From Chromera velia (taxonomy: Eukaryota; Sar; Chromeraceae): a stretch of 30,601 bases of DNA. Positions within the stretch are counted from its first letter, which is position 1; the number at the start of each line of letters is the position of its first letter. Made by a program: the position numbers and the translations under genes. Positions 118 through 30,601 of the stretch are shown here, piece after piece. Location of the stretch: the NCBI GenBank assembly GCA_018398765.1, contig JAHBMJ010000827.1, positions 9,516 through 40,116 on the forward strand, written 5' to 3'. The notes beneath the pieces were generated by a model. It was not told the origin of the DNA and ran no database searches. It saw only the letters and a program-made list of their open reading frames with translations.

Positions 118-1540
118 TCACTGCATTTGAGAATACGAGCTTCCCCCCTCGCTCATATCCGAATTCATCATCGCCACCGGAATATGAACGTACCCAGTCG
201 GCACCCTCTGGATAGGCTGTCCGGGAGGTTTTCTGCGTGCAGCCCCCTCAAAAGTAACTAGATGCCCTCGCCCCCCGCTCTGTGCGAGTGCGAACGAGAC
301 TTCACTTTCTGATCCCGACCTCGTGCCTTCAGGAGACATCCAGATGTACCCTGTGGGGACACGAGAGAGCCGTCCGCCTGTGTGCTGAACAGCTGCAGGC
401 TCAAAAGTCACCCCCCCGGCTACCCCCCGTCCTTCGCTAGGCATGCTTCTCTCGGCCTCCGAGGCTGAGATGACAGACGAGCTGCCTCCTGCAATTTCCA
501 CCCACCCAGTGGGGACCCTCTGTATTCTCCTCCCGTCTCCCTGCAGAGGTGCTTGCAAGAGCACCCGTCTCCCGTCGGATGTCTGAGCGACCTGCAGGGC
601 CTGAGGCTGAGGCTGAGTCAGTCCACTTGCTGCGCTCTGTGCATCGTCTGCCTCAGCGGCCTCATGAGGGTGGAGCACCAGGGGCAGGGCCGCTGCATGG
701 ACACAAATTGAATCAAGTCAAGGGAATGCACGCAAGCAACCACATTCCTTCATTGTTTGAAAGCTCTCAGTTTCTTTCACCGTGCAGGCAGGCAGGCTGG
801 AGGGAGAGTCAGGCGGACAAAGAGAGATACTTCCTGCTGCTCTTGTCTTGGAAGAAACTGAGAGGTCAAAAAGACAGACCAAAAAAATATAAGAGAGACA
901 GCGAGACAGAGAGACAGGGACACAAAAAGAAAGAAAGAGAGAAACTGACATGGCTGTAGCACCAGAGCGTCCCCTCTCCCCCCTTGAACCGCATGCTGGC
1001 CCCTTGCCCCTCCAACTCCTCCCATGTGCCCCCCTCGAGATCTCTGCACGAGGAATTCTGATCCCGTCACGGAAATGTCATCTGAGATCTCGGGAAGCCA
1101 TCCGGTTGGAATCCGGGCAATTGGCCCTTTCTCAGGTTTCAGGGACCCCATGGACATCCCGACATGTCGAGCTTGTGTGGAGCCTGCATATGGGAAATAG
1201 GAGTGCAGAGAATAAATTGATATTTCAGATTTCCGCTTCCCAAGTCTACTCATCGAGAGACAGAGAAGCCGACTTTCTGTATGAGAGCATCGCAACAAAG
1301 CAATGAAGCAAAAATTGCAGGGCAAATCCACTCAAGCGCTCTCTCTACCTGATCGTGACGTGGATCCCCGACTGACTCGATCGCGTCCCGATACACAAAG
1401 AAGTGCCTCGATCATTCTTTTGCATCAGCAGAAGAGAGTGAAAGAAAAGAAAAGAAGAGAGAAAATGAATGTCTGGAAAGCTAGGGGCTATTGAGACCCT
1501 CCCTTTTCCTTCCAGCCTTATGGGGCATTTAGGCCTGACA

Positions 1541-1597
<57 letters not shown>

Positions 1598-3653
1598 TGT
1601 ATTGAGTGTTGTCGTTTCTATCTCTATCCACTCACCAGTAGACACCGCCATCATAGGAACAGAGGGCGAGCTGAGCGGAGCGGGGCCGCTCTTCGCTCTC
1701 TGCGCTCTTCCCTGCGGCCCCCCCTGTCCCCCTCCCGCTGCAGAGGGGGAAGAGGACCCGCAAAGACCCCCCAAACCGGCAGGTGCAGTTTGACCGAGTA
1801 AAAAGGACCTGCAAGAACGTTAGAAAACATTTTTTTTTTTTCGGCTGAATTGTGTTTGTTGGCGCACATCTGCATTTGTGAGCACAGCCTCTTGCTTGCG
1901 GACAGTCACGGAAAAGGACAGGAAGGATATTGCATTGATTATTCAACAAAAACGCAAACAAACGTGAAACCACAGAGAATATAATATGAAGACAATCGGA
2001 CGGACCGACCGACCTGATTGATGTGGAGGATCCCTGTTTCCTCAATTCTTTCCATTCAGGAGGGAAGGCGTTCATCGGCCCCTTGCCTTCTGTCGTCTTC
2101 GTGTCGCTTCCGAAGTTGACGCTGCGACGACCGGCCTTGTCATTAGCGAATCTCTGTCGGAGACTCTGGGCACTGTTGGGAGGTTTGGATGAGCCTGCAT
2201 GCAGACAAGTATGCGTTCATTTCCATACAGAATTCTTTTCGTACAGAATAACCAAATAATAGAGAATAAACGCAAGCGGAGACTCTGGGCACTGTTGGGA
2301 GATTTGGATGAGCCTGCATGCAGACAAGTATTCAGTCACACTGCATGCCGTGCATCGAGGGAGAATTGTCATACGGATGGATGGATGGATGATACAAAGT
2401 CGAGCCTGCAGTTGCGGAGTGCAGATGCACACGTGGATATCAGAATGGCAGTCTGAATTTCGCTTTTCAGTGTACAGCGCTATCAAGAGAAGTTGTTTCG
2501 CCCAATCTCCTCCCTGTCGCCACTCAACTCTGAATCCCGTAAACCGCACTCGCGTCTCTTGTAGATGTGTCAAAAGAGATACTGACAGAGATTTGACTTT
2601 TTTGAAGTTCCGCTCTGCCCTCCTCCTGCAGGAGTGCTCTCTGAGTCTGTTGAAGACACAGATACTCGAGCGTTTGTTTTCTTCACTCCTGCTGCTTCCT
2701 GTCCTGCCGAACCTCCCTCTGCTGCGGGTCCACTTCCCGCACTTGCCTGCTTCCCGGTCTCTCGGACAGTATCCATCGGTCCCCCCATCCCGTCCGTACT
2801 GGAGGAGCCGGAGGGTGCGGCAGAGGAGGGGGGGGCCGTTCCCCGTGGAAGCACCAGCCCTCCTCCCGTCGAGGCTCTGGCGGCATCAGACGGGGGCAAG
2901 GCGGCGGCCTGTGTGTGTGCCCCCCTCCCCCTGTCTGGTGCAGGGGAGCCCACACCCGAGTCTTGGGAACAGCTGCGAGAGGGCACTTCGATCCTTTCGG
3001 CAGGGCCTCGTCTGACTACTGTCTCCAGATCTGCGCGAAAGAGAGAGACAGAGAGAGTCAAACAGACAGACAGGCAGTGTGAAGCAAAAGAAAAGAGAAA
3101 AAATTCAGAGTCAAATCCTGACAGAAAGAAGTGCTCAGCTACCTCCTCTCAAGTGGATGCAGAAAGAAAGCAACCTCTCTGTATAGAGAGAATCTATCCT
3201 CCTCAAAAAAACATTCGAGTACCAGGACCACAAGGATGGATGCAGATTCACACATGCAGTGTGTGTTGTGCAAAGAAAATCGCATGCTCAATTGCTTGTT
3301 CAATGTTGTCCGACTGATTGACGTACTGATTGACTGACCTCCATCCCTAATTCCAGCCACAGGGCCCCTCTCCCTTGCTCCTTCATGCCCTCCTGCTGTT
3401 TTTTGTGCCCCCTCTTCTGTTCTCCCTTCTCTCTCTGCCGCTCTTCCTGCAGATTCTTCATTGGCCTCTTTGGACTCCCTTTTTTTTTCTCTTTCTCCTG
3501 CCCCGTCCCCTTCAGTCTCTCCCTCTGCCTCCGCCTCCTTCTCCTGTCCCTCCATTACTGTGGACAGTTGAAGATATTGGGAGTCGCGTTCGCTCACGTT
3601 CAATGAGTTTCTGCCGTCTTTGTCTGCAGAAGGGTCGAGAGAGAAGAGAAAAT

Positions 3654-3698
<45 letters not shown>

Positions 3699-6600
3699 GA
3701 AAGCCATTCATCTGAAGTGAAGTGAAAACTAACTCATGAACGCGATGGAAGAAGACTAGGGTAGACCAAGAGAAGAGAAAAGGAAAAAAAAAGCAGCAAA
3801 AGAGCCCCCCACCTTCATCCCGAGAGATCCTCTCGATGATGTCTTGGAGCTCTGCACTGATCTGATCCCGGTCTTGCTCGATCGACATTGCCTGCATCCA
3901 TGTATGTACCCATGTGGGCATTCACTCGATTAGTTCAGGGAATACGTACAAGACGGTGTCTCACGCATACATACACCATGTTTGCAATTAAGTGATAGCA
4001 CGAAAGAGACAAAAAGCACAACTGGCAAAGGGATAGAACGGAAGAGGCAAACAAAAGAATTGGCAGGCAAAGGGATCAGAAGACAGAGAGCTGTCAGACA
4101 GACAGACAGACAGACAGACAGACAGGCATACCTACCTGTGCCAAAGTCATCTCTGTCCCCGTTGGAGTTGTCTTCAGGATCTTTCGGAATCTTCCGCTAC
4201 TTGTCTTTTCATTCTCCTTTCCCTCGCACTCCCCTTCTACTGGTTCATTCCCCTTTTCCTTTTCTTCTTCTTGATGCAAGGCTGGGCTATCTGCAGGAAG
4301 AGTCTCGAGAATCTGTAGCGATCCATCAGGTTGCAGCTGTGCAAACTCCAGCTCCCCGCTCTGTCCCGTTCTCTGAAAAATTTGGGACGGACCAGAAGAA
4401 GGAACGGCAGATGCTGATAGTGCCTGAGAATATTCTGACAGAAGAGCTTGAGAATATTCAGAAGGAAGAGCTCCCGGCCAGGGTGTGGGGACTCTCTGGA
4501 TGAATCCCTTCTCGGGCTTTTCGGAGACGCCGCTCTCAAACATGATGCGAGGGGCTAGACCGACATATCCCGTGGGAACGCGGGGAACGGGGCCTGTGTA
4601 GGGCTTGCGCATGGCTTCACTCTCGAAGAGAACGTGCCGACTTCCATCTGAAGACAACACCCACCCTGTCGGAACTCGTTGAACGAGTCCGCGAGACGGG
4701 CCGACATTCGGGTCAAAGCTCACGTGCTCACTGAATTCTGTTGAAGGGGGAGCGGCCACCCACCCAGTGGGAACTCTTCGGATCGGTCCCTTCTCAGGTT
4801 TCCCCGACACCCCGCTCTCAAACAACACGTGATCGGAGGGGGCCTGGACCCACCCTGTCGGGACTCGACGGATGGGGGGATTGCCTTCATTGTCTACTGC
4901 TGACTGCCCAAACCCGACCCCCATTTCCTTCTCTTTCTCTTTCTCTTCGTTGCTTTCCCCCTGACCAGGCTGGTCTTCCTGAGACAAGTGGAGCTTGCTG
5001 CTTGCCCCCCCAGCCTCAGAGACGCCATCACAATTTGACATCGTCGGCATCGAGTGGGGCCAGGGAGTCGGAGTTCTTTGCAGAAATCCCTTTGGGGGCT
5101 TGATAAGGGCAGGACCCTCAAATGCAACGACCTGACCAATATCGCAATCACTCGGGAGGGGCGAGGGAATCCAGCCTGTCGGGACTCTTTTGAGGAAACC
5201 TTTCTCGGTCTTCCTCGTCGCACCACTCTCAAACAACACTTGCTCACCCCCTGACGCCACACCCACGACTCTCCTGGAGGCACCAGCGTCCCACTGAGAC
5301 TCGTCTTCTTCTGACGGCTCGGGTGCCGAGAAGACAAAACCAGTAGGCACTCTCTGTATTGGACCCTTTTCAACTTTGCCCACTGCCCCAGACTCAAAGA
5401 GGACGTGCATACTGCCAGAGGGAGATGCGCCCCCCGCGTCCTTCTCCTCAGGCTCTAAACGGACCCAGCCGGTCGGGACGCGCCTCACAAGTCCGCGAGA
5501 CGGGCTGACATTCGGGTCAAAGCTCACGTGCTCACTGAATTCTGTTGAAGGGGGAGCAGCCACCCAACCAGTGGGAACTCTCCTTATCGGTCCCTTCTCA
5601 GGTTTCCCCGACAAACCGCTCTCGAACATGACGTGGTCAGAGGGGGCCTGCACCCACCCCGTGGGGACTCGTCTAATTGGCCCCTTCTCAGATTTTCCTG
5701 ATACACCGCTTTCAAAGAACACATGGTCAGACGGGGCCTGCAGGGGGGCCCACCCAGTGGGTACACGTCGGATGGGAGGTTTGCCTTCGTTGTCTACTGC
5801 TGACTGACCAAAACCAACGCCCTGACCGCCTCCCTCCACTTCCCCTGTGCTCGGATCATTGCCCGTCGCCTGCATCGTTGCAAACTGCGCAGAGGTCAAA
5901 CGGGAAATCCAACCAGTGTGGAGACGCTGTGAGGATCCTCCCCCGCTGTGTGACGGGGCGGCAGCATCCTCTGAAGGGGGGGCGAGGCTGTTCGACCCCT
6001 CAAATGCCTTTCCCCCACCTGCAGCCTGATCCCCTTGCACGCCACTCAAATCTGAGGGGGCCGACGCCAACACCCACCCTGTCGGAACTCGTTGAACGAG
6101 TCCGCGAGACGGGCCGACATTCGGGTCAAAGCTCACATGCTCACTGAATTCTGTTGAAGGGGGAGCAGCCACCCAACCAGTGGGAACTCTTCGGATCGGT
6201 CCCTTCTCAGGTTTCCCCGACACCCCGCTCTCAAACAACACGTGATCGGACGGGGCTTGTACCCACCCTGTCGGGACTCTTCTGATTGGGCCCTTCTCCG
6301 GGATCCCCGACACCCCGCTCTCGAACATGACGTGGTCAGAGGGGGCCTGCACCCACCCTGTCGGGACTCGTCTAATTGGCCCCTTCTCAGGTTTTCCTGA
6401 TACACCGCTTTCAAAGAACACATGGTCAGACGGGGCCTGCAGGGGTGCCCACCCAGTGGGTACACGTCGGATGGGAGGTTTGCCTTCGTTGTCTACTGCT
6501 GACTGCCCGAAGACTACCTGGTCATGTAGAGTGTCCGGAGAGCTCCCATGTGCCGTGCTAGGCTGACTCCCTGCAGACATTCGTCTAGTCCCGGTCACCT

Positions 6601-9600
6601 GCTGCTGCCCCTCTTCGTTTTGGGGGCCTGCAACTGACGGGCGTGTCCCCCCGTCCCCGGCTGAGGAGGTGATATAACCTGCACAATCGATGCACAAGAG
6701 AATAATGATATAACCTGCACAATCGATGCACAAGAGAATAAATGAAAGTTGAGCAATAAAGATCAGAGAGACGAAATTCGCTCGTTCTGCGAAAGCCCCT
6801 ACGGCACAGTTGACAAAAAAATAGAGAATTTCTTGTGTTGCTCGCTTTGCTGGCTCCCGAGCATGTTTTCTGTTCTCCGTCAGACACACTGACGCTTTGA
6901 CCAGCATACACCCGAAAAAAGAAGCACCGAAACAAGAGCAGGAAAACCTGGAGCCTTTCATGAGTCCTCTATGCCGCCTAGGTACTCTGAACAGAGAATA
7001 ACACATTCACGATGCTACCTGCCTGACCTGTCGGCACTCTTCTCAATTTCCCTGTAGGTGGGAATATTGTCTCAGGCGACCAGTGCTGTCTGATTGCAGA
7101 ACAACTCAGAGAAGTCATCAAAGGCTCATGCTGACCAGGCTGTACTAAAGACCGAGCGGGGGGGACCTCGACGAAAACCGGTTGCTGCTCTTGTCCCTCT
7201 CCCCCCCCTTCCACGGGAACTTCCACAAAAACAGAAGGCCCCTGAGAAGACGACAATCCATGTTGGACTGCAACACCATCCTGCGGTTTCCCTTCTTGCC
7301 CCTGTTCCGGATAGAAAATACACACATTCTCTCCTTCCCCTCCCGAGCGAATATCTCCTTCCAAACTTCCCCTCTCTCCCCTTTCCTGCCCCTGCCCTCT
7401 TTTATCCCCCGGGTCCTCTTTCTTCGTCTCCCTTTCCCTTTCCCCCCCCCTCCCGCTTCCATTCAAAGTCATCAACACAACATCTGCACTTCCGAGCCGT
7501 CTCCTTCCCTTCCTACCCCTCTCCGCCCTCCCTCTACTCGGCCTCTGAGGTATCCTTGGAGCAGCCTGACTCGGGGGAGTCCGAACAAATTCGCTTGTAG
7601 AAAGACCCTGAGAAAGTTCGTCAAGAGGACCACTGTCAAGACGTAAAACCTCTCCCCTTCCCTTCCTGTCTACCCATAATTCCTCGGTCCTCCCTTGCCT
7701 GATCACAACAACTCTCGAGGGCTTCATCGATACAGACCCTCTCCCACCCTCGACTTCTCTCTCTACCTGCTCAGGGCGCACTCCAGCTCTTTCCCTTTCC
7801 CTTTCCAAATCTGCTTGAGCATCGCCAGCTCCTCGAGAGGTTTGCTTTCTCGGGCAGGTGGGAGGAGACTTGCGGCATCTCTGTGAGTTTTTCGAAGGGC
7901 ATTCGTTCTCTTTCTTCTGGACGTCCTCAGTCTTCAAAGCCCTCAGCGGACAGGAGTCGCAAAGTCCTGCCGGATCCACTGACGATAGTGGGCACTGAAA
8001 GCACGCACTTCCAGGCTGTTGATTCGGGTTCAGGAGAGCTCGAGCAGCTGCAGCAGCACTGGCCGCATGCAGCTGTAAAAGGTTGAGGGCACACGGAGAG
8101 AGTGCCCCCCCATTGGGAGATTGGGAAAGGGGGGGAGATGCCATTGCAGTCCCAAAGTGTTGCTGATATGGCCACGGCATGGCACAGAAAGGATAAACTG
8201 CAAACGGGTTTTGGCTGTGGATACAGGGGGGGGGGCAGCTTGTTGAAGCTCTCTGTTGCTGAGGGGATGGCGGAGCTTTTTTCGATGCAGAGGCTTCAGG
8301 AGATTGAGATTGCCGACAGGTTTCGTTCGTAGCTCCTCCCGGATGATGGCGTCCTCCTCGCCTCTCTGCCTGGTCTCGTTCCTGTTGGCGCCCGTCTTCC
8401 CCGACCGGCTGGCTTTGTGTTCTCCGAGCCCCTTCGGCTCTTTTGTGTCTGTCGCACATGCGGTGTCTGTGGAGGGCACAGTTGTGGTTTGTGTCCTGGC
8501 TGGTTTGCTTTCTCTCTTCTCCTTGAGGGGAGTGAGAGGGGGGCTGTGGCTGTTCTCTCCCTTGAAGTGCGTCTTTTTCCTCGCGTGACATTTCAGTGGA
8601 GCGAGCGGGATTGAGGCGCACACGCGCGTCTACTCTTGTGGTCGTTGTGGTAACTGCGTACAAAGGATTGGGGGTCCCTTGGGCCCCTTGGGCAGTGGGC
8701 CCTTGAGTTTGTTTGTTTGGCATGGGGGGCATGAGGGGCTGGCTGTTCGCATTTTCGAGTGCGGTTGAAGGGGGAGGCCTGTTGAGTCTTCTCTGTTCAA
8801 AGTGACTCATCGTGGTGGGGGGGAGGGGAAAGGAGGCTGCGTTGAGTTGCGTTTCTCGTGTGTGTGGGTAGTTTGCAAAGGTGCAGTACTGGTCTATAGC
8901 CGGGTCCTTGTGATAGAACTGTGTGTCGGGAATCTGAAAGTTGCCTTTTCTTTCTGGAGGGAGGGAGCGGGAGGGCGGCTGGAATGGTGCTGTGACGGTT
9001 CGCGTGTTGGCGTGTCCTTTGGATCGGGTTTCGTTTGCATGAGGACGGGTGGGGCTCTGTAAGGCTCTTGCGTTTTTGCTCTGTGCTACGCCGAAGGTGA
9101 AATTGGGAGGGGGTGAGAGCCGAAGGGGGGGTGTTGAGATGGGTGTGTAAGCGGAGGGGGGGATGCCTCTCGGGTTTGGGGGCGAGGTCATGAGGACACA
9201 TTGATCGTTGTATGGATAGGATGGTCCACAGGGGTGCGGAATCATTTCGGAAGAATTCGGAAGTGACTCCTGCCTTGTTGGGTATCTGCTTGGAGTGTTG
9301 GAGAGGCTTGTGAGAGCTGGAAGGGGGGCCGGAAGGGCTTGAAGAGGGAGGGGAAGACCTTCGTTTCCTCCCCCCATGGCAGTTGCAGTGACAGGGGGGA
9401 AGGGAATTGAATTTTGATTGAGTGCTAGGCTGATCTTTGCCTCAACCTCTGAGATTGGTCTCCCTTGTAATTTCGCTTCTTCCTCTCCTGTCAACCCTCT
9501 TTCAAACTCTTCCCCTTGAGTTGTCTGACGGGGGGCAAAGCTCTCTTGAGGCTGAGCTCTGCCGATGAGATTCTCTTGAATCCCGGCGCCAAGTTTGTGG

Positions 9601-10795
9601 GGATCCACACGAGCGGAGGTCGGTCCTTCTGGAGAATGGAACAGGTCAACGCCCATACCCAGAGGGGGTTCGGGCTGTCTTTCTCCGTCTCCGACGCACA
9701 GTCTGTCTCGTAGTGCACGGTTTTGACTGTCGAGTAAGTGAAGGAGTTGCTGCTGCATTCGGACCATCTCCGTAGCCTCCTTCACCGTCATGCTGCTCAC
9801 ATCTTGCGTGTTGAATCTGGACAGGGCGGCAATCTCCAAGCCCGAGAAAAGAGCCCCCTCTCCTTCCTGCTTTCCTCGAGGGGGTGAGGGTGTTTTTTTC
9901 TTTTTGGTTCTGTTCGTTTTTCTTGTCGCTTGGCTCTCTGTTTCCGAGATCGCGTGTTCTGATGGGCAGGAGGGGCGTGCCGTCAGATTACACGCGATGC
10001 AGTTCTGCAACAATTCAAGCAGCAGGGGGCTGGCTGTACACTCAAAAGGTCGAGTGCGAGTCGAGAAGCGACGAATGAACGTACAAGGGGCAGACAGTAG
10101 AAATTGATAGGGCAACCAAAGGAAGTTAGACGCCATTCGTTTTTCACATCGAAAGCCATCTCCACCCACATGCACCACAAAGTTTTTCCTTTCCTTTCAA
10201 ATCTCTCGACAAAATCCAAAGGAGGGCACTCAATTCGATCAGGCAGTCTGACCGGCTGATGCTGACTGCATGAATACGAACGCAGCTAGACAGCGGGGGA
10301 GTTCTGGCGTGGGTGCGTGGGTGCGTGCGGGCAGAGAGATCAGCAAACAGTTGGCAGGGTATGTGGGCATGGAAGGAAGCAGACACTGACTTGTTCTGTG
10401 GCTCTCTGCATTCTCCTGTCCTCTGCGCTCTGCCTCCTGTAAGTTCCGAAGAAAGTTCCTCTCTGCGCTGATGATTTCGACTGCATTGCGAACAGGTGGT
10501 TCTGGAGCTCTCCGTCCTTCTCTTCGCGTGTTTTCGTTGGTTGTTCTTCTCGATTACCACTTCGGGAAGGATAGATAAGACGTCGTAAAGCTGAAATAGC
10601 CTCTCGGTCTGGAGAAGGAAAAGGGGGATGAGTCTTCTCTCTCAACTCCTTCTCACGTTCTCTGTGTTCTCTCTCCCTTTCCTTCTGTGTCCGACTGAAG
10701 TTCTGGAGTGCCTCTGAGTTCCTCTGGTGCAGTTCTGCGAAGGTTGGAAAGTCTAGGTCGCTTTGGTGTCTGGGGGGAGACCTTCCGCGTCGCAT
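118..10795 (-). CDS. Giant VxF...PTGW tandem-repeat protein, ten exons
   Basis: I do not recognise the family. Exons on the minus strand are 10795-10391, 10004-7028, 6678-4136, 3891-3813, 3623-3339, 3030-2587, 2194-2014, 1808-1636, 1183-950 and 692-118. Their lengths sum to 7,896, exactly 2,632 codons with the stop, and the phase matches at every junction. The start is the first ATG after an in-frame TAG. Residues 1-135 are charged with a short Arg/Glu-rich helix. Residues 136-1127 are Pro/Ser/Gln-rich and disordered, with one CX2CX10CX2C cluster near residue 800. From about residue 1120 a repeat takes over, V-x-F-E-S-G, 4-8 residues, E-K-G-P-I-x-R-V-P-T-G-W, with Ser/Pro linkers. I count about 22 clear and 3 degenerate copies. 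No signal peptide or membrane segment is seen. A structural scaffold role is only a guess. Exon borders were placed by eye; the coding assignment is strong. Confidence 0.85.
1541..1600. repeat. Compound microsatellite (CTGT)n(CT)n(GT)n
   Basis: Three simple-repeat types run directly into each other. The tract lies in intron 8 of the minus-strand repeat gene, just downstream of the GTGAGT donor at 1635. Confidence 0.95.
2158..2331 (-). repeat. 55-bp direct duplication carrying an acceptor and exon start
   Basis: Positions 2158-2212 and 2277-2331 are direct copies, 54 of 55 bases identical, 119 bp apart. Each contains, on the minus strand, a GCATGCAG acceptor followed by the first 35 or so bases of exon 7. 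The copy at 2158-2212 fits the coding frame of the repeat gene. The other lies in the preceding intron, and its use would shift the frame because 119 is not a multiple of three. Confidence 0.85.
3653..3695. repeat. (GA)n microsatellite acting as a polypyrimidine tract
   Basis: On the gene's minus strand this reads (TC)n and ends about 30 bp upstream of the CTGCAG acceptor at 3625-3624, so it probably supplies the polypyrimidine tract of intron 4. Confidence 0.9.
4093..4126. repeat. (GACA)n microsatellite in intron 3
   Basis: About eight tandem GACA units lie a few bases downstream of the GTAGGT donor that ends exon 3 of the repeat gene. Confidence 0.95.
4510..6525 (-). repeat. Higher-order coding repeat array inside exon 3
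   Basis: Three blocks each open with the same unit, V-x-F-G-Q-S-A-V-D-N-E-G, starting near 6520, 5820 and 4920 on the minus strand. Each continues through several V-x-F-E-S-G / R-V-P-T-G-W units and a V-S-F-D-P-N unit in nearly the same order. Long nucleotide stretches are almost identical between blocks, for example around 4739-4840 and 6157-6250. This indicates recent internal duplication or gene conversion of whole blocks on top of the older 30-residue repeat. Confidence 0.85.
6678..6749 (-). repeat. Tandemly duplicated 3' splice site of intron 2
   Basis: A 36-bp segment containing the end of intron 2, its TGCAG acceptor and the following bases is present twice in tandem. The two possible exon starts are 6678 and 6714, exactly 12 codons apart and both open. 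Either acceptor completes the motif R-V-P-T-G-Y across the junction with the donor at 7028, because both copies begin with the same GTTATATC. The distal acceptor would add 12 hydrophobic, Cys-containing residues. Confidence 0.75.
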
Positions 10796-11505
10796 GCCCC
10801 GTCTACTTTGCAAGCACTGGCGCTAGGTTGTGATTGAATCAGACGGAAAAGAACAAGCTTCAATTCCTCAACGAAAAACAGAAGCGACGGAAAACCTTGT
10901 ACAGCGTGAGCTCCCACTGACTACGAGATGACAATGGGACAGTTGCACGAGAAGAAATGTCCAGCCAGCCTCGGCCCTCTGGCGAGATCAATTGTAAGAC
11001 CTTAATTAATTAATTGAAATTAACCTTCGATCGGCCGGCCTCCGTCAGAATGCTTCGCAGAGGGCAGCTCATGCACTCGATCGCTGCGTAAAAAAGAGGC
11101 CCTACGAAATTTTCGTGCCTTCGTTTTCCTACGAAGGTCGCGGTTGATCAATCGTACCCTATGCGATGGTCATGCAAGGCACTCACCGCAAATTTTCATC
11201 AGTGTGTCAGCTCTGTACGCAACGATATAATTCGCTTTTTTTTTTTTTTCCGATGCATGCATGCATGCATTCTTCTTCCTTCGTAAAAATCGATCAAATG
11301 CATGGTCGAAGTGCGTGATCGAATTGTGATCGAGGTCGGAGGAAAGAGGGAATTCAAGGCAAGCTAGCTCTGTACATATATATCCAGTAAGAAGCTTTTC
11401 CTGTGAAGTCCTCTACGCAGTCAAGAGACTGAAGCACTGCTCGTTTCACCAGAACTATCCCTATACAATCGATTGGGACAACGTAAAGCTTCTGTGCGTG
11501 CTAGA
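10796..11505. promoter_or_regulatory. Divergent intergenic promoter region
   Basis: About 710 bp separate the start codons of the minus-strand repeat gene and the plus-strand CaaX gene, so both promoters should lie here. Visible elements are a TTAATTAATTAATT tract near 11003, a 13-bp palindrome at 11104-11116, a 6-bp-stem inverted repeat at 11118-11137, a poly-T run near 11230-11249 followed by (TGCA)n around 11252-11270, and a TATATATA tract near 11375. TGCATGCA is a known ApiAP2-type target in apicomplexans; its role here is inference. No other gene is seen. Confidence 0.5.
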
Positions 11506-13257
11506 ATGAACTTCTCAGGCTCCTCCTCTGTGCCAGACCAAATTAGCAGTCTGTACTCATTCTGTATTGAGACCACAAATGGGAACTTCTTGCCAGACGC
11601 CCTCATCTCTCCTGCCTCTTCTTCTCTCCGCTCCCTTTCCCCCTCCCAAGACGTGTGTCTAAAGCTTGCCTCGGTTTTCCTGAGAGGCGATCTGCCCACT
11701 CAAGAACACCTTGATGAAGTGATAGACGGGGCATTGGAGGGCAGCAATGGTCAATGGACAGACAGGGGGGGGAGAGATTCTGGTCCTTTCAGTCTTGCCT
11801 TTCTTCAATCTGCTCGAGTAAGAGACTCCCAACCTGTCGAAAAGAGAGCCTCAGAAATGCAAGACGTTCTTGTCGAGTTAGTCTCCGCAGGCTCACGTCT
11901 AGGCCTGCAGCAGCAACAGCAGCAGCCGGGAGGAGGGGGAGAGAGAGCAGGGAGTGGAGGCTCAGCCTCTGTGTGTGTGCTGGAGAAGGGCGGCAAGTGT
12001 CACTTGGTCGCCTTTCTCCGGCAACCCTTCATTCGAGGTGCTTCCCCCCCGAACCCCCCTTTGCTGTGGCTATTTGACCCCTACTCTCTGAGGATCTCTA
12101 GCGCCTCATCACCCGACCAAGACGACTTTGAGAGTGCCTTCCTTCGCCCTGCAACCGGGGGCACCTCCAGGTCCTACACCAGGGGGGCTGCTCTGTGCGC
12201 ATTCAGAAGCAGGGGCGCATTGGAACAGTACGTCCGAAAACGGCTCGTTGACTCATGTGCCTCAGGAGCAGGCTCAGCGGCATCGGATCACTTCTGCTCC
12301 CTCGACCCCCTTCCCCGCCTGCGGGTCCGATTCTTCTCCGCTAGCATTTTGCCGTCCCCTTCTCCCCCCTCTGCACCCACTAGAGAAAGAAACAAAAACG
12401 ACATCACTCAGTCTGTGACACAGGGGAACAGGAAGACAACAGGATCCCTCGGTGTTCCGCACAGACCCTTGTGCCCCCCCTCGGCCGACCTCTCGATTCT
12501 CCCTTCCCCTTCGAATTCCAAAAACATGGTGGAAGTCTCTTCCAGGGGGGNNNNNNNNNNNNNNNNNNNNNNNNNNNNNNNNNNNNNNNNNNNNNNNNNN
12601 NNNNNNNNNNNNNNNNNNNNNNNNNNGGGGGGGGGGGGGAAGCAGCAGGAGAAGAAAGGGAACTGTGACGCACCCTTGAGCATTCTGTCCATTCACGCTC
12701 AGGAACAAGTAACTGAAACAAGAAAACTGGGGGGGGGTACAGTCTCATCTAAGCAGCCTCAGCCAACTAAGCGAGAAAGCTTCGAAACCATTCTGGTCGA
12801 CAACGATTCAGAAAACGAAAGGGACAAAGACGAATTTCATGTCCGATTTCAACGGAGGGAGGAGAACCATCAACAGCTATCCCTCTCTCGTTCTTCTTAC
12901 CAGAACAGAAGTAGATCCAACGCCACCAGTTCCGAAGAGGACGAAGACGAGGGAGAGAATTCCTCACTAGGCCAAGGCCATGGAGGGGAGTTGAACAGAA
13001 GTAAGCAGGAGTCGGTTCACCATGTGGAAATTCTCAGGGACCGGCTGAGAAACTTGGAAGCAGAGAATCTTCGACTGGCTGCGGAGAAGGAAAGAGTGGC
13101 TGACCAGTTGGCTGCTTCTTCTCGAGCCTGTAGGGACTTGGAGCACCGTCTTGAAAGGGAACGGGCCCCCCCGAACTCAGACTCAAGGGACGCAGACTGG
13201 GAACTGACTCGGAGATCAATGTGTGGACAGGCAGACGGCAGCTGCGTTCTCATGTAA
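11506..13257 (+). CDS. Coiled-coil protein with C-terminal CaaX box, intronless
   Basis: A single open frame of 583 residues if the 76-base gap is correctly sized. I chose the first ATG; the frame is open a little upstream but without another ATG. Residues 1-290 look globular, with a Leu/Phe-rich segment, a Gln run near residue 136 and a W-L-F-D-P-Y-S segment followed by a Tyr-Val-Arg-Lys-Arg helix. The layout vaguely recalls papain-like deubiquitinases with an Asp-Pro-His motif, with Tyr in place of His, but I do not rely on it. The middle is disordered and acidic. Residues about 505-555 form a coiled coil. The protein ends in C-V-L-M, a CaaX motif whose terminal Met favours farnesylation in known systems, with a second Cys eight residues earlier. 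Membrane attachment through a lipid is inferred. The specific function is unknown. Confidence 0.8.
   Translation: MNFSGSSSVPDQISSLYSFCIETTNGNFLPDALISPASSSLRSLSPSQDVCLKLASVFLRGDLPTQEHLDEVIDGALEGSNGQWTDRGGRDSGPFSLAFLQSARVRDSQPVEKRASEMQDVLVELVSAGSRLGLQQQQQQPGGGGERAGSGGSASVCVLEKGGKCHLVAFLRQPFIRGASPPNPPLLWLFDPYSLRISSASSPDQDDFESAFLRPATGGTSRSYTRGAALCAFRSRGALEQYVRKRLVDSCASGAGSAASDHFCSLDPLPRLRVRFFSASILPSPSPPSAPTRERNKNDITQSVTQGNRKTTGSLGVPHRPLCPPSADLSILPSPSNSKNMVEVSSRGXXXXXXXXXXXXXXXXXXXXXXXXXXGGGGKQQEKKGNCDAPLSILSIHAQEQVTETRKLGGGTVSSKQPQPTKRESFETILVDNDSENERDKDEFHVRFQRREENHQQLSLSRSSYQNRSRSNATSSEEDEDEGENSSLGQGHGGELNRSKQESVHHVEILRDRLRNLEAENLRLAAEKERVADQLAASSRACRDLEHRLERERAPPNSDSRDADWELTRRSMCGQADGSCVLM
12551..12626. 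other. Assembly gap of 76 N
   Basis: The run of N is bordered by G homopolymers on both sides and lies inside the CaaX gene. The frame continues on both sides, so the estimated size keeps the reading frame, but the true length is unknown. A Gly-rich or G-rich low-complexity tract probably caused the break. Confidence 0.95.
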
Positions 13258-21340: not shown

Positions 21341-24300
21341 CTATCCCACCTCGGCCCGCTCCTCCACAATCCCGACCGGCCCCGGCAAGCCCTCAGGGAA
21401 CCCTCGCAAACCGAGAGCAAGCAAGTGAGAGAGGGAGGAGGGCGCTGAATGGAACGAAAACGAAGAAGAGACAGATTGTCCCTGCGGGTCTCTACGCAAA
21501 GAAGTTGAGAGGAAAGGGGCCACCAGGGGATTCGAGAGAGCAGCAGGCGGGGGAGGAACACCAACGACAGATTCTCTCTGTTCTCTCTCCCCTTCCGAAG
21601 TGCCAGCTGCGGCATGCGCGGCTTCTCCGTGCTCTTCCTCTTCCTCTTTCTCTTTCGAAGGTCGGACAGAGGACGCCGGGATGGGACCAGGGGGGTGTCG
21701 TTGTGTGTCTTTTTTCTGAGAAGAAGAAGAAAGGAGACATGCGGTCGAAGGATGGGCGTATGGGTGCAGATGGAAAATGCATCCACTACTTGATGTGTGC
21801 TGCCTCGAGCCTGCATCTGGCCGCTCTCTTTTTTCTTCGATTTCTGTCCCTCGCATTGGCCCAAATGATCCTCCTCTTCGTGCAGAAACCTCTGCCTGCC
21901 GCTCCACCCTCCTCGTCTGCTGCCTTTGAAAGCCGCCGACTAATTCAGACGAGGAGGGAGGAGGGAGGAGTGAAGAGGGGAACGGGGGGCCCTCTCCGGT
22001 CTTCTTGGCTTTGACTGTAGGGGAAGCTGTGGCTTGGGCTTTGTTGGGAAAAGAGCGAAACGGTGCGTATCCCTCTTCCTCGGAGGAAGCAGAGGACTCA
22101 GCTGCATGCAGGAATGGAGGGAGGGAAACGGACAGAGGGGGCATTCTGGGTGATACGGGGAAGGGAGCAAGATATGTGAGCAGAACAACAAAAGAGACAT
22201 GCAGACTGTCTCGTTTTTTCCATCGTTCGCTATTGTTTGCTTTGATGTGAAAAAGAGAACGACTACAAAACGTTTTTTTTCCTTGGCCTCCTTACGGGCT
22301 CACAGAACAGACAGGAACGGTTCAGTAAAAAGAGAGACTGTGTAACTTCCTTCTCTTGCCTTCCTTCTTCCTGACTCCACATCGAATTCTGAAACACAAA
22401 GAAAGCGAAATAGCGCTACCTTTCTATCTTCGTTTCTTTCTCTCTTGGGAGCACAGGCAGCCAGGCACGAGCATGTTCCTAAACCATCAGTCCTCCCCAC
22501 CCCTTCCCCTTGAGGCACGCACTCACCTTGTGCAGCCCTGGAGGAGGGCCCAACGGAGCCGCATCCCCCCATCTCGCACTCTGCTTCATCCTCAGCATCC
22601 ACCCCCATCCCCATCCCCCCCGCTGCAGGAGGACGACCCCCTCGAGACTTCAACTGTGTGACAGCAGCAGCAGCAGCCGCCTCATGATGTGCCTGCAGAG
22701 TCGACGTCAAACATCCACCTCCATCGTTTCCCCCCCCTCCTCCCGAATACGCCCCTGCGTCACGCTCCTTCTCCCTTTCTCTCACTGCAACCCAGAGTGC
22801 CGTGCAACTGTCGACTACTGCTTTCAATTCATCCACCGACACCGTCTCCTCTCTTCTCAGGAGACTCGCAATCTTGGCACGGCTCTCCTCGGGGACCTCC
22901 CGACTTGACAACAGACGCTGGGCCACACGGACGTACCGTACAGCCTCAGACAAACCGGACTTTGTCCATTCTGTCCGACGGCACCGATCCGCAAGCCCGA
23001 GGCCCCCGCTAGCACCCGAGGGCCCCCCTGCACCTGCCTGCCCCTTCTCGTTGTTATTCCCAACTACAGCAGCTACCTTTCTTCGCCAGTCTGCGAGGGT
23101 GAAGGCTGGGGGGCTAGGGAGGCTTTTGCCTCTGGGTTGCTGCTGTTGAGAAGCCTGCAGGTCTGTGCAGTCCTCCATTTCAGCGCTCAGTTTCTGTCTC
23201 GGAAGGCTCATGGGGAAGGAGCGGGAGAGACCTTCGGGGACGCCGTTGGTTTCCTCTTCGTCCTCGTCTGATGAGATGTCGAGAAGCTGAGAGGCGTCTG
23301 CAGAATGGGGGGGGATGAGGCCCTTCTTCTCCTGCTGCTCCTGTTGCTTCTGCCTTGATGGATTGACCAAAGCAGGGAGCAATGTGGGCCAGTTGGAAAA
23401 CAGCTGGCCGAGGCTGTCAGGCGGAGACGGGGAGGGGGAAGAAGCAGAAGAATAATCGGCCAAACGGTGGAGGTGGTGGTTGGCTGCATGGGGGAGAAGA
23501 GAATGGGGGTGTCCTCGGGAGTGCCTGCCAGGGGGCAACACACCACCGTAGCTGTGGGAAGCAAAGGGACCACTGCGACCGTGCAGTGAGTACATGCCGG
23601 GGCCCTGATTAGTCCGGGGTCCCGGGCCCCGTTCGCCCCCGCTACTCCCTCCACTTCCACCTGACCACCCACTTCCACTCACCCCCTGGCCAGAGGAAGA
23701 CATACTTTCCATGCACCCGTGCAGTCCCCCCCCGGAGTGCGGTTTGTTTGTCTGGGCAGCCCCGGGGACTTTCCCCTTTCCCCCCACAGTACGGTGATCA
23801 AGGGACGACGAGGAGCCGGAGTGGCCCTCACTACTCGTCGGGATGTTCCGCTTGCTGGCGTCTCCACTACCGGAACCCGACCCTGAGCCCCCCGCCGTCG
23901 TGGTCTGGTTGCCCATCAGCAGCAGTCTCTCTGCCTGGTGCTCCCGGGGGTCTCTGCCTGTGAGTCGTCCGGGGCCGCTGCCCGCAGAGGGGCCGTGCAG
24001 GTCCTTGCAACTACTTCTGTTCTTGCGCTCTCCTGCTGCAAGCATCGGCATGCACTGGCCTGGCGGGGCGGTGGCCATCTGTTCATCGCAAACAACCGTC
24101 TCCAGCGCCATGCTTGGAGGGTATTCTCTGCCGTCTCTCTGTAGGCTGGGGGCTTCTAGGGCAGTGGGGGCGGGTTGGTGGTCGTGTCTGACTTGGACTT
24201 GCATTTGGAGGGGGGCAGGGGAGTGAGAGGGGGGGGGCACGCTGGAGACGGGGGTTGAGCCTCTTTTTTCCTCTTGCTCTCTCCACCCCTGCTGGCCCTC

Positions 24301-26376
24301 CTCTTGGTCAACGTCCATGGGGACAGATACAGATTCAGCAGCAGGATCCTCTGTCCGCACACCCACCCCCTCGCTTACTGGCTGGACCTCTGGCACACAT
24401 GGCGGCATGCGACCATCCTTCTGCACGAACGCATGCATCATCATCATCATCACCATCATCAATGCATCATCATCATCATCATTATTATTATTATTGATCG
24501 GTCTATGGGCATCATCACCATCATCATTGGTGTTGTTGTTATTTATTGATCTGCAGGCCATCATGCAATCGTCATCATTCACCATCGCCAACGCACGCAT
24601 ACACACGCACGCACAACAATACACAGACCGACACAGACAGAGAGAGGCATGCGTATGAGGAGAAAAGGCAGACCGAGATCAACGAAAGAGACAGAACGGC
24701 AGATGAGAGGAAACACATAGAGACAACGAAGGGCAAATGCCCCTCTCCGATTCCTTTGCACACGGGCAGAAGAGCCCCTATCCCAACACACCCAAGGAAG
24801 AAAGTGGGAATTAAAGAAAACCCACCGGGCGAAGACGAAGTCGGACAAGTGGGCCAAAGTCATCCTCGTCAAGGACCACCCACTTGCCCCTCCGCCCCCC
24901 CTCCTCCCCCTCTCCGTCTCCCTCTGCATCTCCTGAGAGGGACGAATCCTCCAGACTGCCTCCCTCGAGGAAACCTCCCATAAGGTTGTCCTGTGGGGGG
25001 GCGGAAGGGGACAGAGATGAAGAACTTCCAGTCCCATTGGAGAGACGGCGAAGCACACCCGGGCTCAAAACGCCCAGGACTGCGGGAGGTTCAGGAGTGG
25101 GGTTGGCGGAGGGTGCTCTTCCCCCCGTCGCTGTGCCGCTGTACGTCAAGATGGGGGAGCGGCCGGCGTGTCCCTCGCCTTCCCCTCGTCCCTGACTCGA
25201 AGCCCAGTTGTGCCCCCCCCCTCCCCCTCCCGCTGCCGCCTCCAGAGACGGAAAGGAAACACCCGGGGACCCTGGAAGGGAGGGAGAAGGGGGCGCGACG
25301 TCTGGAATGACCTCGTATGTGCCTGCATGCACACACGGACGCAGTGGAATTAGTGGGAAGTGTGGAATGCATTGTCGTACTCCCAAGCATGCATGCACCC
25401 ACGGAGGCGAGAGAGAGCATGCGGATAATGCCGACACCTCTATAGAAGTACACAGATGCCAAGACAGGCATGACAAAGGCACACACAAACAAAAAGCAAG
25501 GGCGGCAAAACAAGAATCCTTAATTGGACGTCGGCAAACGCTCACACCTACGATTTTGTTCCTTTCCCCTTCCTCTTCATTCCTCTTCCCACAAAAACAG
25601 GCAAGCATGCAGACAGGCTCGATTTTTGCTTACTCTCCCCCTTTTTTCTGGTTCACAGACTCACTTCGAGATAAAAAAGGTGGGTGGAAAGAATGCAAAA
25701 CAACTCATACAAAAGAGAGAAAAAACAAAGAAAGGGGGAGACACAAAAAAAAGACGCAGAAGACGAGTGAGTGCCTCGATGAGCAGATAGACACTGAGAT
25801 AGCCAGACGCAGCGTTAGAGACAGGGAGAACGAGGCCGACAAAGACACACAAGGGACAACAAACACTGGCAAACAGGCAGGCAGGCTTACTCACCGATCT
25901 GAAGCTGTTTGCAGGACTCGTAAAGGATCCGCAAGATTTCGCTTAGCCGGACCTTTCCACTCCCATCTTCCTTCACGCTCCCTCGGCACGCGAATTGCTG
26001 CACACATCAAAATTCAATGTATGTCACTGTTCAGTACACGCTACTTCCTCTTCCTTATACCCTAGCGTCTACATATGCACGCATACACTGGAAGAGCTGC
26101 AAAAGGCCGACTGACCGCTTCCAGACCCCCTTCAATGACGTAAAGAATTTCGATTTCGGTCCTCTCCCCGTCCTCCTCAGTGGAGACCTCACTTGTCGCT
26201 GTCTGGTCTCTCTCCTCCCTCGCCATCTCACCGCCCGCTTTCCTCATCTCTTGTTGGAAGAAGAACTGAGGAGGAGAGGGAAGTGTCTCGGCAAAGACGC
26301 ACCTTTCCTCATCCCCAACCTCTCCCGCATACTCCTCTCTGCTGCTGTCGCTACTTTCGTGAAGACTATTCAACAT
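21341..26376 (-). CDS. Large disordered protein with an EF-hand-like loop, five exons
   Basis: I do not recognise the family. Exons are 26376-26116, 25997-25895, 25322-24826, 24420-22527 and 22101-21341. Phases 0, 1, 0, 1 match and give 1,171 residues. Every acceptor ends TGCAG; donors are GTCAGT, GTGAGT, GTGGGT and GTGAGT. Residues 96-107 (KEDGSGKVRLSE) fit an EF-hand loop with Lys at the first position in place of Asp, between two helices. Residues 269-277 contain V-V-L-D-E-D-D, and residues about 666-677 L-L-D-I-S-S-D-E-D-E, both like SUMO-interaction motifs. A compact helical stretch lies at about 728-850. The rest is Ser/Gly/Pro-rich. The first exon is the least certain: the frame is open a little upstream without another ATG. 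The last exon may also be divided or be followed by further exons. Confidence 0.7.
24436..24496. repeat. (CAT)n/(ATT)n microsatellite beside an acceptor
   Basis: Trinucleotide repeats lie in the third intron of the minus-strand gene, ending about 15 bp upstream of its CGTGCAG acceptor. Read as protein they give an artificial run of Met, Asp and Asn. Confidence 0.9.
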
Positions 26377-27388: not shown

Positions 27389-30300
27389 ATGGGATCAAAA
27401 GTGGAGCTGCCTGAGGGTCTCCTCCTCCAAGAGATTGTCGTCTCAGCCGGAGTCGTTTTTGCGCGCATGTCTCTGGCGGACGGCGTCTCCCTCGATGTCT
27501 TCTCTGAGAATACCTCTGTGGCCATTCGTCTCGACTTGTCGAGAAACCCGACGCTCTCAGAGCTGTCTGTTGTCGCTGCTTCAAGTCTGCAGGGCCTTCA
27601 GCTGCCGAGTGAGAACCAGAGGCCCTTTGATCGCAGCGCTTCATCCGACTGCATGGCGTCTCTTCATATTCGGAAAACAGGTGTGTGTTCAGCTGCCGCA
27701 TCGCCCTTCGCGCTCCCTCTGGTGAACAGGCATCAATAACGATGTTCATTGTGTTGCAGGAAGTGGATCTGGTGATGAGGAAGAACGAGAGAAGTCTGCT
27801 GCGGCCCCATTCTGCATCGTGGTTTACGAAGAAGAAGAAGACGGGAGGATTTGGCGGTTGGAGGTTTCGGCCGAGGCGGGGTCTTCTGTTCAGTCAGATC
27901 CCTTCTCGCGTTGCATGAGGACCCTCCTGGACCACCTATCTGAAGTTCCATGTGGATGGGGGTGCCCTGTGGGGGCTCTTCCTTTGGTGTCTCCTGAAGA
28001 GCGCCACACTCTCCTCGAGTGGGCATCCGGCATGCCCTGCCGACTCCCTTCGCCTGCGCAGACGGTGCACAAGGCCGCACTTGACCGATGTAAAGAGTTC
28101 CCTGAGAGAGTTGCAATACTGCCCCCCCTAGGCTCTCCTACCTTCCCCTTGTCAAGGGGTCAGGTAGAGCAGAAAGTGAGGTTGATCAGCAGTCAGCTAC
28201 GCGGAAAGTGGGAGGTCTTGCCGGGAGAGCGAGTGGGGGTCATGATCGGTCATCACCCGATGTTCCCTGTAGTGATGCTGGGTGTGATGGCGAGTGGTGC
28301 GGTGTGTGTCCCGTCAGATCCCCTGGATGCAGACGGCGTGAAGGAGTACATCCTCACAACCGCCCAGTGCAGGGCCTGTGTGTGCCTGAGCCACTCTGCC
28401 TCTCCATCTTCCTCTTCGTCTGCGGGTGGGGCAGTCCCTTCTCTCTCCACAGTCAGGATGGTGGCTCTGAACGAACTCCTTGAATCGGACGCCGACCCGC
28501 ACTCTGTTTGCAGGCCTGAGGCTGAGGATTTGAGTGCAGATGATCATCTCGAAGAGGAAGTGTGGTCCGATTCCGGCCATTCCGATTCGGAGGCTCTGGT
28601 GATCTTCACCTCGGGGTCAACGGGTGTTCCCAATGGGGCGAGTCTCTCCCACGGGAACCTTCTGAACAGCCTCTCGGGGCTTGAAGAAGATACATTCAAA
28701 GCACAAGAGGCTATCCTCTGGCAGGCCAACTGTCGATGGATTCTGGGGTTTGCTCAGTGCGTTCTGGGGATGGCCGCTGGTCTTCGTGTCTCGGTTTGTC
28801 CTCGTGAAGTCTCACAAGACCCTCCGAAACTGGATGAACAGTTGGCAGCACACGGAGTGACGCTCCTGTGGGGCATTCCGTCGGCACTCGCGGCTCTCTC
28901 TCGTGCGGGGGTGTCGTTTCGAAACCTGAGCCTGATAGTATTCGGGGGGGAACCCGGGCGGGCCTCTGACGTGTCTGCGATTCTGCAGGCGTCAGAGAAA
29001 GAAACAGGTGGCGAGTCTGTCCCCGTTGTGAACTCCTGGGGGATGACAGAGATCGGTTTTGCGGCTCAGACTCGAGTTAGCAGGGTGGAAGAACCGTTAC
29101 CTCTCGGTCGGCCCATGAGTAACGTCCGGTTGTTCGTTCTCGACAAGTTTGGAGATCTCCTGCCGCGGTCCTGCAAAGGGGTGCTGTGGGCAAGCGGGCC
29201 GACGGTCACGCGGGGGTATTTGAACAATTCGGATAGAGACGCAACAAAATTCTGTGTGAGAAATTTTGGGGGCAATCCCCTGCAAAGGGGGTCAGAGAGG
29301 CTTTTCTGCACTGACGATCTTGCATCGTGGGAGGAGGGGGGGGTGCTGACGGTACACGGTCGGGTGGATGGGAGAGTGCGGGTGCGGGGTCAGTATGTAG
29401 AGACGGCAGTTGTGGAAAGAGTCCTGAGGGAGATGAGAGATGTGAGTGAGGCCTCTGTCATTCAATTGAACGAAGACCTTGTGGCTGCCATCGTCCCCTC
29501 CTCCTTGACCGGTCGTTCAGCATCGCAAGTCACCACTGTGAGGTCCTGGTTGAATCGGAGGCTGCCTCGTCCGTCCGTTCCCTCTGCCATCTTCTTTCTC
29601 GATCGATTGCCCCGCACTTCCACAGGCAAACTCGATATCGCGGCACTCAAACGGGTGCTGACGGAGAAGATGAACGAGAAAGAACGAGAGCTTTCCGCCC
29701 TGTCCCCTCCTTCCCATATCAAGGGGTCGGCAGGAGTGCTGAGTGCTCTGAATAGAGAGCGTCTTCAGACGGCTGTCCGCGAGGTTGCAGCGACAGTTCT
29801 GGGTCTGTCTCCGAGGGACGTCCCAGTGGACGCTCCCCTTGCTGACCTCGGAATCGACTCACTCGGGGCAGTTGAGTTCCGTAACCGCCTCTCATCGAAC
29901 CTCGGTGTGTCTCTACCGGCAACCATTCTCTTTGATCGGCCCACACTGACAGAGCTTTTGGATTGGATGGTTCGTGGAGACCTGACGGCGCATGAGACAC
30001 TGGGTCATCGAGCGGAATTCGAGAATTTCTATTCATCGAGAGGCGACAAAGGGGGAGGCGGGGTGGCGATTGTCGGTGTTGCGTGTCGGTTTCCGGGTGG
30101 CAGCAGCAGTTGTGAGACGTTCTGGGAGATGATGATGTCGAAGAGAGACTGCATGTCTGAGGTTCCGCTGAGCAGGTGGAACAACGAGGCCATGTTCGAC
30201 CCCGACCCTGATGCAGAGGGGGAGAGAACGTACGTCAGAGAGGGGGCGTTCATCGAGGACATTGAGAGGTTCGACAACGCCTTCTTCTCCGTCTCCGAGA

Positions 30301-30601
30301 CAGAGGCGGCGTTCATGGACCCCCGACAGAGGCACATGCTGGAGTGCTCCTTTGAGGCCTTTTCGCACGCGGGATACTCAAAAGAGTCCCTCTTGGGCTC
30401 TCGAACAAGTGTCTACGTTGGATGCTGCTACGGGGACTGGCATTCAAGAGACATTCAGAGGAAGAGCAACGCCTTTGTTGGCACAGGCATAATGCCTGCA
30501 CTCCTGTCCAACCGCGTCTCGTACGTTTTTGGTTTGAAGGGACCCTCACTGACGATTGACACCGCCTGCTCGTCGTCTCTTGTGGCGATTGATGCGGCTG
30601 T
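27389..30601 (+). CDS. Modular PKS/NRPS, 5' part: condensation remnant, A, ACP, KS (runs off the edge)
   Basis: Exon 1 is 27389-27680 and exon 2 runs from 27760 to the window edge with no stop, giving about 1,044 residues. Residues 1-170 match only the C-terminal half of an NRPS condensation domain: an E-N-T-S-V-A-I-R segment followed by D-L-S-R-N-P-T near residues 40-55, and the usual linker L-P-L-V-S-P-E-E-R. The HHxxxDG half is absent. The adenylation domain spans about 175-725, with F-T-S-G-S-T-G-V-P-N-G near 380 (Asn for the usual Lys), N-S-W-G-M-T-E at 522, T-D-D-L near 615, G-R-V-D-G-R-V-R-V-R-G, and the catalytic Lys in S-T-G-K-L-D at 721. The carrier-protein serine is 798 in G-I-D-S-L. 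The ketosynthase starts near 865 and reaches D-T-A-C-S-S-S with active Cys 1034. An adenylation domain would activate a starter acid and load it on the carrier for the first condensation. Confidence 0.9.

Follow-up and report, generated by a model that had tools for sequence, protein, structure and literature searches.

The question raised by a 30,601-nucleotide stretch of the Chromera velia genome (assembly GCA_018398765.1, contig JAHBMJ010000827.1, positions 9,516 to 40,116; hereafter the window, G000:C826:9516-40116) is whether a short motif repeated many times in one of its genes belongs to a known family, whether it is confined to that gene, and what it might do. The motif follows the pattern V-x-F...G-x-I-x-R-V-P-T-G-W/Y/F, of which the R-V-P-T-G-aromatic part is referred to below as the core. 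The units are far too numerous to be expected by chance, the pattern of codon changes points to selection on their core, and the libraries that we scanned give them no name. Sequence comparisons show that at least three further genes of the genome carry the same unit. We lean towards the reading that the gene encodes a largely disordered scaffold carrying many linear motifs, which would bind or cluster a partner by avidity, and that the proteins with the same motif would share this partner.

Repeat units of the window gene

We could align 22 units of 26-28 residues each (17 in exon B, three in exon I, one in exon H and a divergent one in exon F), with the consensus xHVxFESxxxxKPxKGPIxRVPTGWVxx. 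The proline of the core is invariant in all 22, and the V, F, R and T are each conserved in at least 90% of them. In addition to the aligned units, two very degenerate cores lie at 5935-5900 and 4183-4148. The protein contains 21 cores, against a mean of 0.0075 and a maximum of one in 2000 whole-protein shuffles. A preliminary description of this DNA, made from the window alone, had reported about 22 clear copies, the last of them on separate small exons; the alignment and the shuffles bear out this observation as a whole.

The units are encoded on the minus strand, to which a six-frame motif scan of the window confines the core in its V-x-F/KGPI context. We modelled the gene with nine exons, running from 10136 to 118 (Table 1). 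All eight modelled introns start with GT and end with AG, and the joined reading frame has a single stop, which is terminal. Counted from the first methionine of exon A, the model gives 2,543 residues with an uncertain N-terminus; the preliminary description had 2,631, and upstream exons beyond the model could make up the difference. The protein is rich in glycine, serine and proline, and its isoelectric point (pI) is 7.32. Exon B shows clear block duplications, some of them recent (60 codons at a proportion of synonymous differences, pS, of 0.11).

Two splice sites of the model lie in duplicated sequence. Some 120 bases upstream of the start of exon F, within the intron, lies a near-identical copy of it (window positions about 2320-2130, minus strand), which yields two similar acceptor sites, and the acceptor of exon B sits inside a short tandem duplication.

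Related units elsewhere in the genome

The genome searched comprises 177.8 megabases in 4,040 contigs. A search with the repeat array of contig C3962 returned 54 places, including C3962 itself, C972, C1117 and C1288, by whose names we also refer to the genes concerned. Three links between the window gene and C972 are independent of the core pattern, with modest expectation values (E) obtained in one genome. The divergent unit of exon F, compared with the whole genome, has its best match beyond its own place in C972 (E 0.0099, the next being at E 1.42). For the unit of exon H, C972 is the sole match outside the gene among the matches listed (E 0.0049). Reciprocally, a query joined from C972 stretches finds its best match, C972 itself apart, in the window array (E 0.006).

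Profile comparisons test the relationship further. Profile A1 matches profile A2 with a probability of 95.9 and a score of 31.8, whereas the highest of 300 column permutations scores 13.6. However, a set of 27 unrelated windows, itself chosen with the core pattern, reaches a score of about 24 and a probability of 94 (the 100 draws reorder one set of windows and hence count as one control), so that most of the score of 31.8 is due to selection of the core. We therefore compared the 19 residues that precede the core. The flank alone scores 12.4. The maximum is 2.3 for 60 draws from the 27 same-core windows and 3.3 for 300 draws from 598 unrelated R-x-x-T windows, the unrelated windows of this control being less alike among themselves than the repeat units are. 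When this mutual likeness is preserved, by permuting the columns of real paralogue units 200 times, the flank obtains 13.8 and the best permutation 12.1, which is a narrow margin.

Single-profile scores of a hidden Markov model built from A1 are modest, with 200 shuffles per sequence for comparison. C972a obtains 11.1 bits for the whole sequence and 9.9 for the best domain (shuffle maxima 4.2 and 2.0), and C1117 obtains 5.4 and 2.7 (shuffle maxima 2.1 and 0.7). The best domain of C3962 is above its shuffles (12.5 against 5.0) while its whole sequence is below their maximum (6.0 against 7.3); C1288 and C972b did not rise above theirs. Given the core-free flank tests, we treat C3962, C972 and C1117 as bearers of the window unit, and C1288 as a likely one. 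In alignment A3, which holds 30 rows of main-type units, units from more than one gene share a hydrophobic anchor, G-x-V/I and then R-x-x-T-G-[FYW] at corresponding distances. The A3 profile misses the exon F unit, which was omitted from this alignment, so that the family link of that unit rests on its match to C972.

The preliminary description had presented the repeats as a family within one predicted protein. The genome searches and flank tests overturn this restriction, and the presence of the unit in several genes is what is new relative to that description. Exon A has no match in the rest of the genome at E 0.1, hence the four genes share the unit and not their N-terminal parts. Close to where its open frame ends, C3962 carries FLVTFNSKTKEPRGKVKRVPTGQ, in which the core is truncated as it is in exon A.

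The pattern R-V-P-T-G-aromatic, which also admits S, L, C and stop at its ends, matches 57 genomic places, including 18 in the window gene, against 152 for the backward control; hence the core taken by itself shows no genome-wide enrichment. Inspection of all 39 places outside the window gene found one, in C3962, that lies in a unit array. A second pattern occurs at 38 places against 20 in its control, with 23 in C3962, three in C1117, two in C1288 and ten elsewhere, and none of the four inspected among these ten is a unit. A third occurs at 28 places against two, with 21 in C972 and seven elsewhere, of which five were inspected, again without finding a unit. Among the third-pattern matches, those on C97, C234 and C3481 have the same sequence, from which the one on C2248 deviates by a single letter; the surroundings of those on C97 (L105) and C2248 (L109) are similar, and the matches have the appearance of dispersed-repeat copies without relation to the unit.

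Other candidates were set aside. Six contigs matched by the C3962 array (C2925, C3971, C1445, C797, C184 and C172) have no frame longer than 90 residues with at least two cores, and we take them, unchecked, for matches to the acidic linkers. A scan of prokaryotes gave 215 pattern stretches, among which two places in Naasia passed; each of the two frames has a single isolated APIRRVPTGWWWV and no repeat, hence we regard them as chance matches. A viral scan gave nine pattern stretches, none of which passed.

The paralogous frames have some peculiarities of their own. Those of C3962 (L091, about 729-760) and C1117 (L093, minus strand, about 1100-1070) have in common A-A-[YW]-H-N-P-S-S-D around a TGCAG acceptor-like site, which may reflect a homologous upstream exon in both genes. 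The 502- and 1,008-residue frames of C972 overlap in different frames (L092, 4064-8462), and each has a type 2 unit (described below) followed by a similar ATPEQL...GEA stretch; they are perhaps one gene with an internal duplication.

Conservation of the core and searches for known families

Across the family, the second half of the unit is the better conserved one. R and T are the sole fully invariant columns of A3, and G is nearly invariant. The V-x-F anchor becomes A-x-I or A-x-F in most paralogue units, in which R-x-x-T-G is kept, and the V-x-F end is, on this alignment, the weaker part of the unit. A second type of unit, V/L-x-F-x-x-D-T-K/R...G-K-G-P-L/M-x-x-F-P-x-x-W, lacks the T of the core; the window gene has one such unit and C972 has two.

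The strict conservation of a short core, already remarked in the preliminary description, reflects selection. We compared one unit for each of 13 classes, using proportions of synonymous (pS) and nonsynonymous (pN) sites rather than a model-based test. Between unit classes the RVPTGW core has a pS of 0.78, at which synonymous sites are saturated, and a pN of 0.23; pN is 0.53 in the spacer and 0.68 in the three residues directly after the core. The codons for R-V-P-T-G vary freely from unit to unit. Since synonymous sites are saturated and the core is nevertheless kept between classes, these comparisons indicate that the frame is translated and that its core is held by purifying selection. Between the super-blocks of exon B, pS ranges from 0.09 to 0.36 and pN is at most 0.059. 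The core has a pS of 0.75 and a pN of 0.068 in C972 (22 units), and of 0.56 and 0.136 in C3962 (33 units); in both, the units were picked by a pattern that includes the core, so that pS alone is unbiased. The saturation of pS and the low pN of the core also mean that block duplication by itself is an insufficient explanation. Neutral tandem duplication without function, to which the duplicated blocks of exon B would otherwise lend themselves, is accordingly the least probable of the explanations that we considered, all the more as the unit is kept in separate genes.

The unit has no name in the libraries scanned, in line with the preliminary description, which could assign it to no named repeat. 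Pfam gave no credible match for seven exon pieces (exons C and G being outside the scan) or four paralogue frames at E 1, nor for 30 single units at E 10, and NCBIfam gave none for five proteins. DUF1720, LPD23, TDBD, Zwint and LEA_2 were all under their cut-offs and were discounted; Phage_tail_terminator_6 reached 30.0 bits on C3962 against a cut-off of 23.8, with no single passing stretch. A scan of five proteins against PHROGs gave phrog_10864 (E 1.8e-06) and phrog_14401 on exon B and phrog_3724 on C972b, all without a passing stretch. It also gave phrog_15004, a family of single-strand DNA-binding proteins, which matched C972b at E 6e-18 with five passing stretches and C972a at E 0.0073. 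This numerically strong match pairs the acidic, repetitive portion of C972 with profile positions 263-395 (out of 421), and we take it for a match to an acidic tail or composition, the alignment itself not having been inspected. Among the sequences of solved structures in the PDB, profiles A1 and A3 had no match and exon B had one weak GDSL-esterase row (E 0.8). Rfam gave no match. The matches listed for the core strings in the open-licence literature of PMC, a corpus that leaves out most subscription journals, contained no paper on such a repeat.

The structures of adjacent units were predicted with AlphaFold from the window sequence, as the preliminary description had proposed, and no confident fold was obtained. 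Four units (7 rows) gave a predicted local distance difference test (pLDDT) of 40 and a predicted template modelling score (pTM) of 0.31, with short low-confidence strands, and two units (12 rows) gave a pLDDT of 61 and a pTM of 0.13, where DSSP assigned nothing. These models, made from shallow alignments, agree with disordered linear motifs. The protein also looks disordered from its composition, which is compatible with the disordered linkers described earlier.

Proposed function of the array and alternative readings

If the array is a disordered scaffold, each unit would offer two anchors, a hydrophobic one (V-x-F) and a stricter second one (hydrophobic-x-R-V-P-T-G-aromatic), set apart by a short, variable spacer. 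The 22 units of about 26-28 residues would act as linear binding motifs on flexible linkers, and many copies per chain would hold or cluster a partner by avidity, in the manner of stickers and spacers. Since the same motif occurs in other genes, in up to 34 copies, one common docking surface is probably recognised. The units, the selection on them and their spread over several genes are results, and disorder, binding and a single partner are inferred from them. Arrays of short motifs are already known from other disordered proteins; this unit is one without a named family in Pfam or NCBIfam. Of the preliminary interpretation, an unnamed unit, apparent disorder, a selected core and few basic residues in the V-x-F part are supported. 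Its multivalent binding of one partner is conjectural, and its restriction to a single protein is not borne out.

Several observations weigh against a disordered scaffold. One super-block linker of exon B is conserved as well (pN 0.000, pS 0.09, in 30 codon comparisons); recent duplication explains this, yet a structural array is also allowed by it. The 7- and 12-row alignments behind the predicted structures leave room for an unrecognised fold, and the first of the two models does have its short, low-confidence strands. Finally, the period of the units is near-constant in C3962 and C972, mostly 44-50 residues, which could suit an ordered assembly.

The last of these points leads to one of the two chief rivals, a structural repeat of the cortical or microtubule cytoskeleton (alveolins broadly, or tau-type), with units placed along a polymer lattice at regular spacing. 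Beside the period of the paralogues and the strands of the four-unit model, it would account for the fairly regular spacing in exon B, where 12 of the 17 core-to-core distances, counted from the exon A core onward, are of 29-37 residues. The tubulin-binding repeats of tau and other microtubule-associated proteins (MAPs) likewise have a motif, containing Gly, Pro and Lys, at a spacing of about 30 residues in a disordered chain. However, we know of no counterpart of R-x-x-T-G-aromatic in them, and the Pfam scans of exon pieces, paralogue frames and single units gave no tau/MAP match, the presence of that model in our library copy being unchecked. Nor did the exon pieces and single units match an alveolin or articulin (the presence of IMCp in the library copy is likewise unchecked). 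Alveolins and articulins (epiplastins) are, like the window protein, repetitive proteins of alveolates, said to have no strict sequence motif except VPV, and the articulin subclass requires more than three VPV modules (PMC6212826). The window protein differs in having a strict motif and a single VPV in 2,543 residues, which places it outside the articulin subclass. We regard a cytoskeletal repeat as unlikely, though it deserves to be kept in mind.

The other chief rival, to which we give similarly little credit, is a multisite phospho-array, in which the Thr of each unit would be phosphorylated and then read by a phosphothreonine-binding partner, making the scaffold switchable. Hydrophobic-x-R-x-x-T is the consensus of CaMK/CDPK/AMPK-type kinases. 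The two invariant columns of A3 are precisely R and T, and position T-5 is hydrophobic in 82 of the 84 cores that fit R-x-x-[ST]-[GP]-[WYFQC]. Yet all 84 have T and none has S, which an ordinary phosphosite would not usually show, except where its reader is specific for Thr. The conserved G and the aromatic residue that follows it exceed the kinase consensus, and the type 2 units have no core T to phosphorylate.

A Rubisco or pyrenoid linker acting like EPYC1 or PYCO1 seems improbable. The architecture is the same, since PYCO1 (PMC10288592) and likewise EPYC1 are disordered proteins with several short aromatic-containing motif copies, or stickers, between flexible spacers. PYCO1 has a W sticker, a GTGYNP motif and a pI of 10.03, according to the same source. 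Unlike it, the window protein is near neutral and has many more copies, and C3962 and C972b are acidic, although C1117 is basic (Table 1). The KWSP sticker is found in none of the window protein, C3962, C972b and C1117. In addition, a 2012 paper states that direct evidence for pyrenoids is lacking in C. velia (PMC3468483).

Slightly harder still to sustain is a PP1-regulatory scaffold docking via V-x-F (RVxF) and neighbouring short linear motifs. The docking pattern of PP1 is [RK]x0-1[VI]{P}[FW]. The units do start with a V-x-F triad, and a published account places RVxF in about 70% of known PP1 regulators (PMC4999541). The full pattern fits only 3 of the 22 units, just as the preliminary description had noted that most copies lack the basic residue, and membership among the RVxF regulators fails on this count. 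Furthermore, the triad is lost in most paralogue units, which are mostly A-x-I or A-x-F, whereas the R-x-x-T part is invariant.

Should the scaffold reading be correct, a repeat family absent from the scanned libraries would be common to several repeat-rich proteins of one genome, and one peptide would provide a concrete handle on their partner and on the structure that these proteins build. In Chromera velia, this would bear on the scaffold proteins of photosynthetic relatives of apicomplexan parasites, and on whether the parasites kept them. A more speculative extension, which we consider quite unlikely, is a lineage-specific sticker code, in which hydrophobic-x-R-x-x-T-G-aromatic motifs in at least four disordered proteins would build and tune one cellular condensate or cortical layer, with the conserved Thr as a kinase switch for all of them.

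Table 1. Exons of the window gene (window positions) and frames of the genes with related units
Feature	Position or extent	Strand	Content
Exon A	7019..10136	-	N-terminal part, without full units; 1,039 codons from first methionine, true start uncertain
Truncated core KLRRVPTGQ of exon A	within 7061-7023	-	3' end of exon A, immediately before the GT donor
Exon B	4136..6678	-	main array, 17 units (6523-4469) in three related super-blocks
Exons C, D, E	3891-3813, 3623-3339, 3030-2587 (span 2587..3891)	-	charged or Ser/Gly-rich; without units
Exon F	2014..2194	-	divergent type 2 unit VNFGSDTKTTEGKGPMNAFPPEWKEL at 2126-2043; matches C972 units LTFSADTRQEDGGKGPLNAFPKNWRKS and LAFSADTREEDGGKGPLVSFPKGWRKS
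Exon G	1636..1808	-	linker without unit
Exon H	950..1183	-	unit RHVGMSMGSLKPEKGPIARIPTGWL at 1169-1089; matches C972 RHAHISVAALKPEKGKVARRPTGFV
Exon I	118..692	-	units at 570-493, 417-337 and 264-181; stop codon TGA at 120-118
C3962	one open frame, 2,050 residues		34 cores; strongly acidic linkers; pI 5.31
C972	two frames, 502 and 1,008 residues		22 cores; strongly acidic linkers; pI of C972b 4.49
C1117	361 residues		3 cores; pI 9.56
C1288	fragment at contig end		2 cores; strongly acidic linkers

The remainder of the window holds three other frames of some length. On the minus strand, 22300-24678 is a 792-residue open frame, Ser/Gly-rich, with no Pfam match at E 0.01. On the plus strand, 11407-13257 is a 616-residue open frame with a run of N at 12551-12626 and a coiled-coil-like C-terminal part; neither of its two pieces has a Pfam match above cut-off. 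Finally, 27726-30599 on the plus strand covers the first part of a large gene. Its domains (AMP-binding, AMP-binding C-terminal, phosphopantetheine carrier and ketoacyl synthase) resemble those of a type I polyketide synthase that includes a loading ligase. The frame of this gene continues past the end of the window, which is also the end of the contig.

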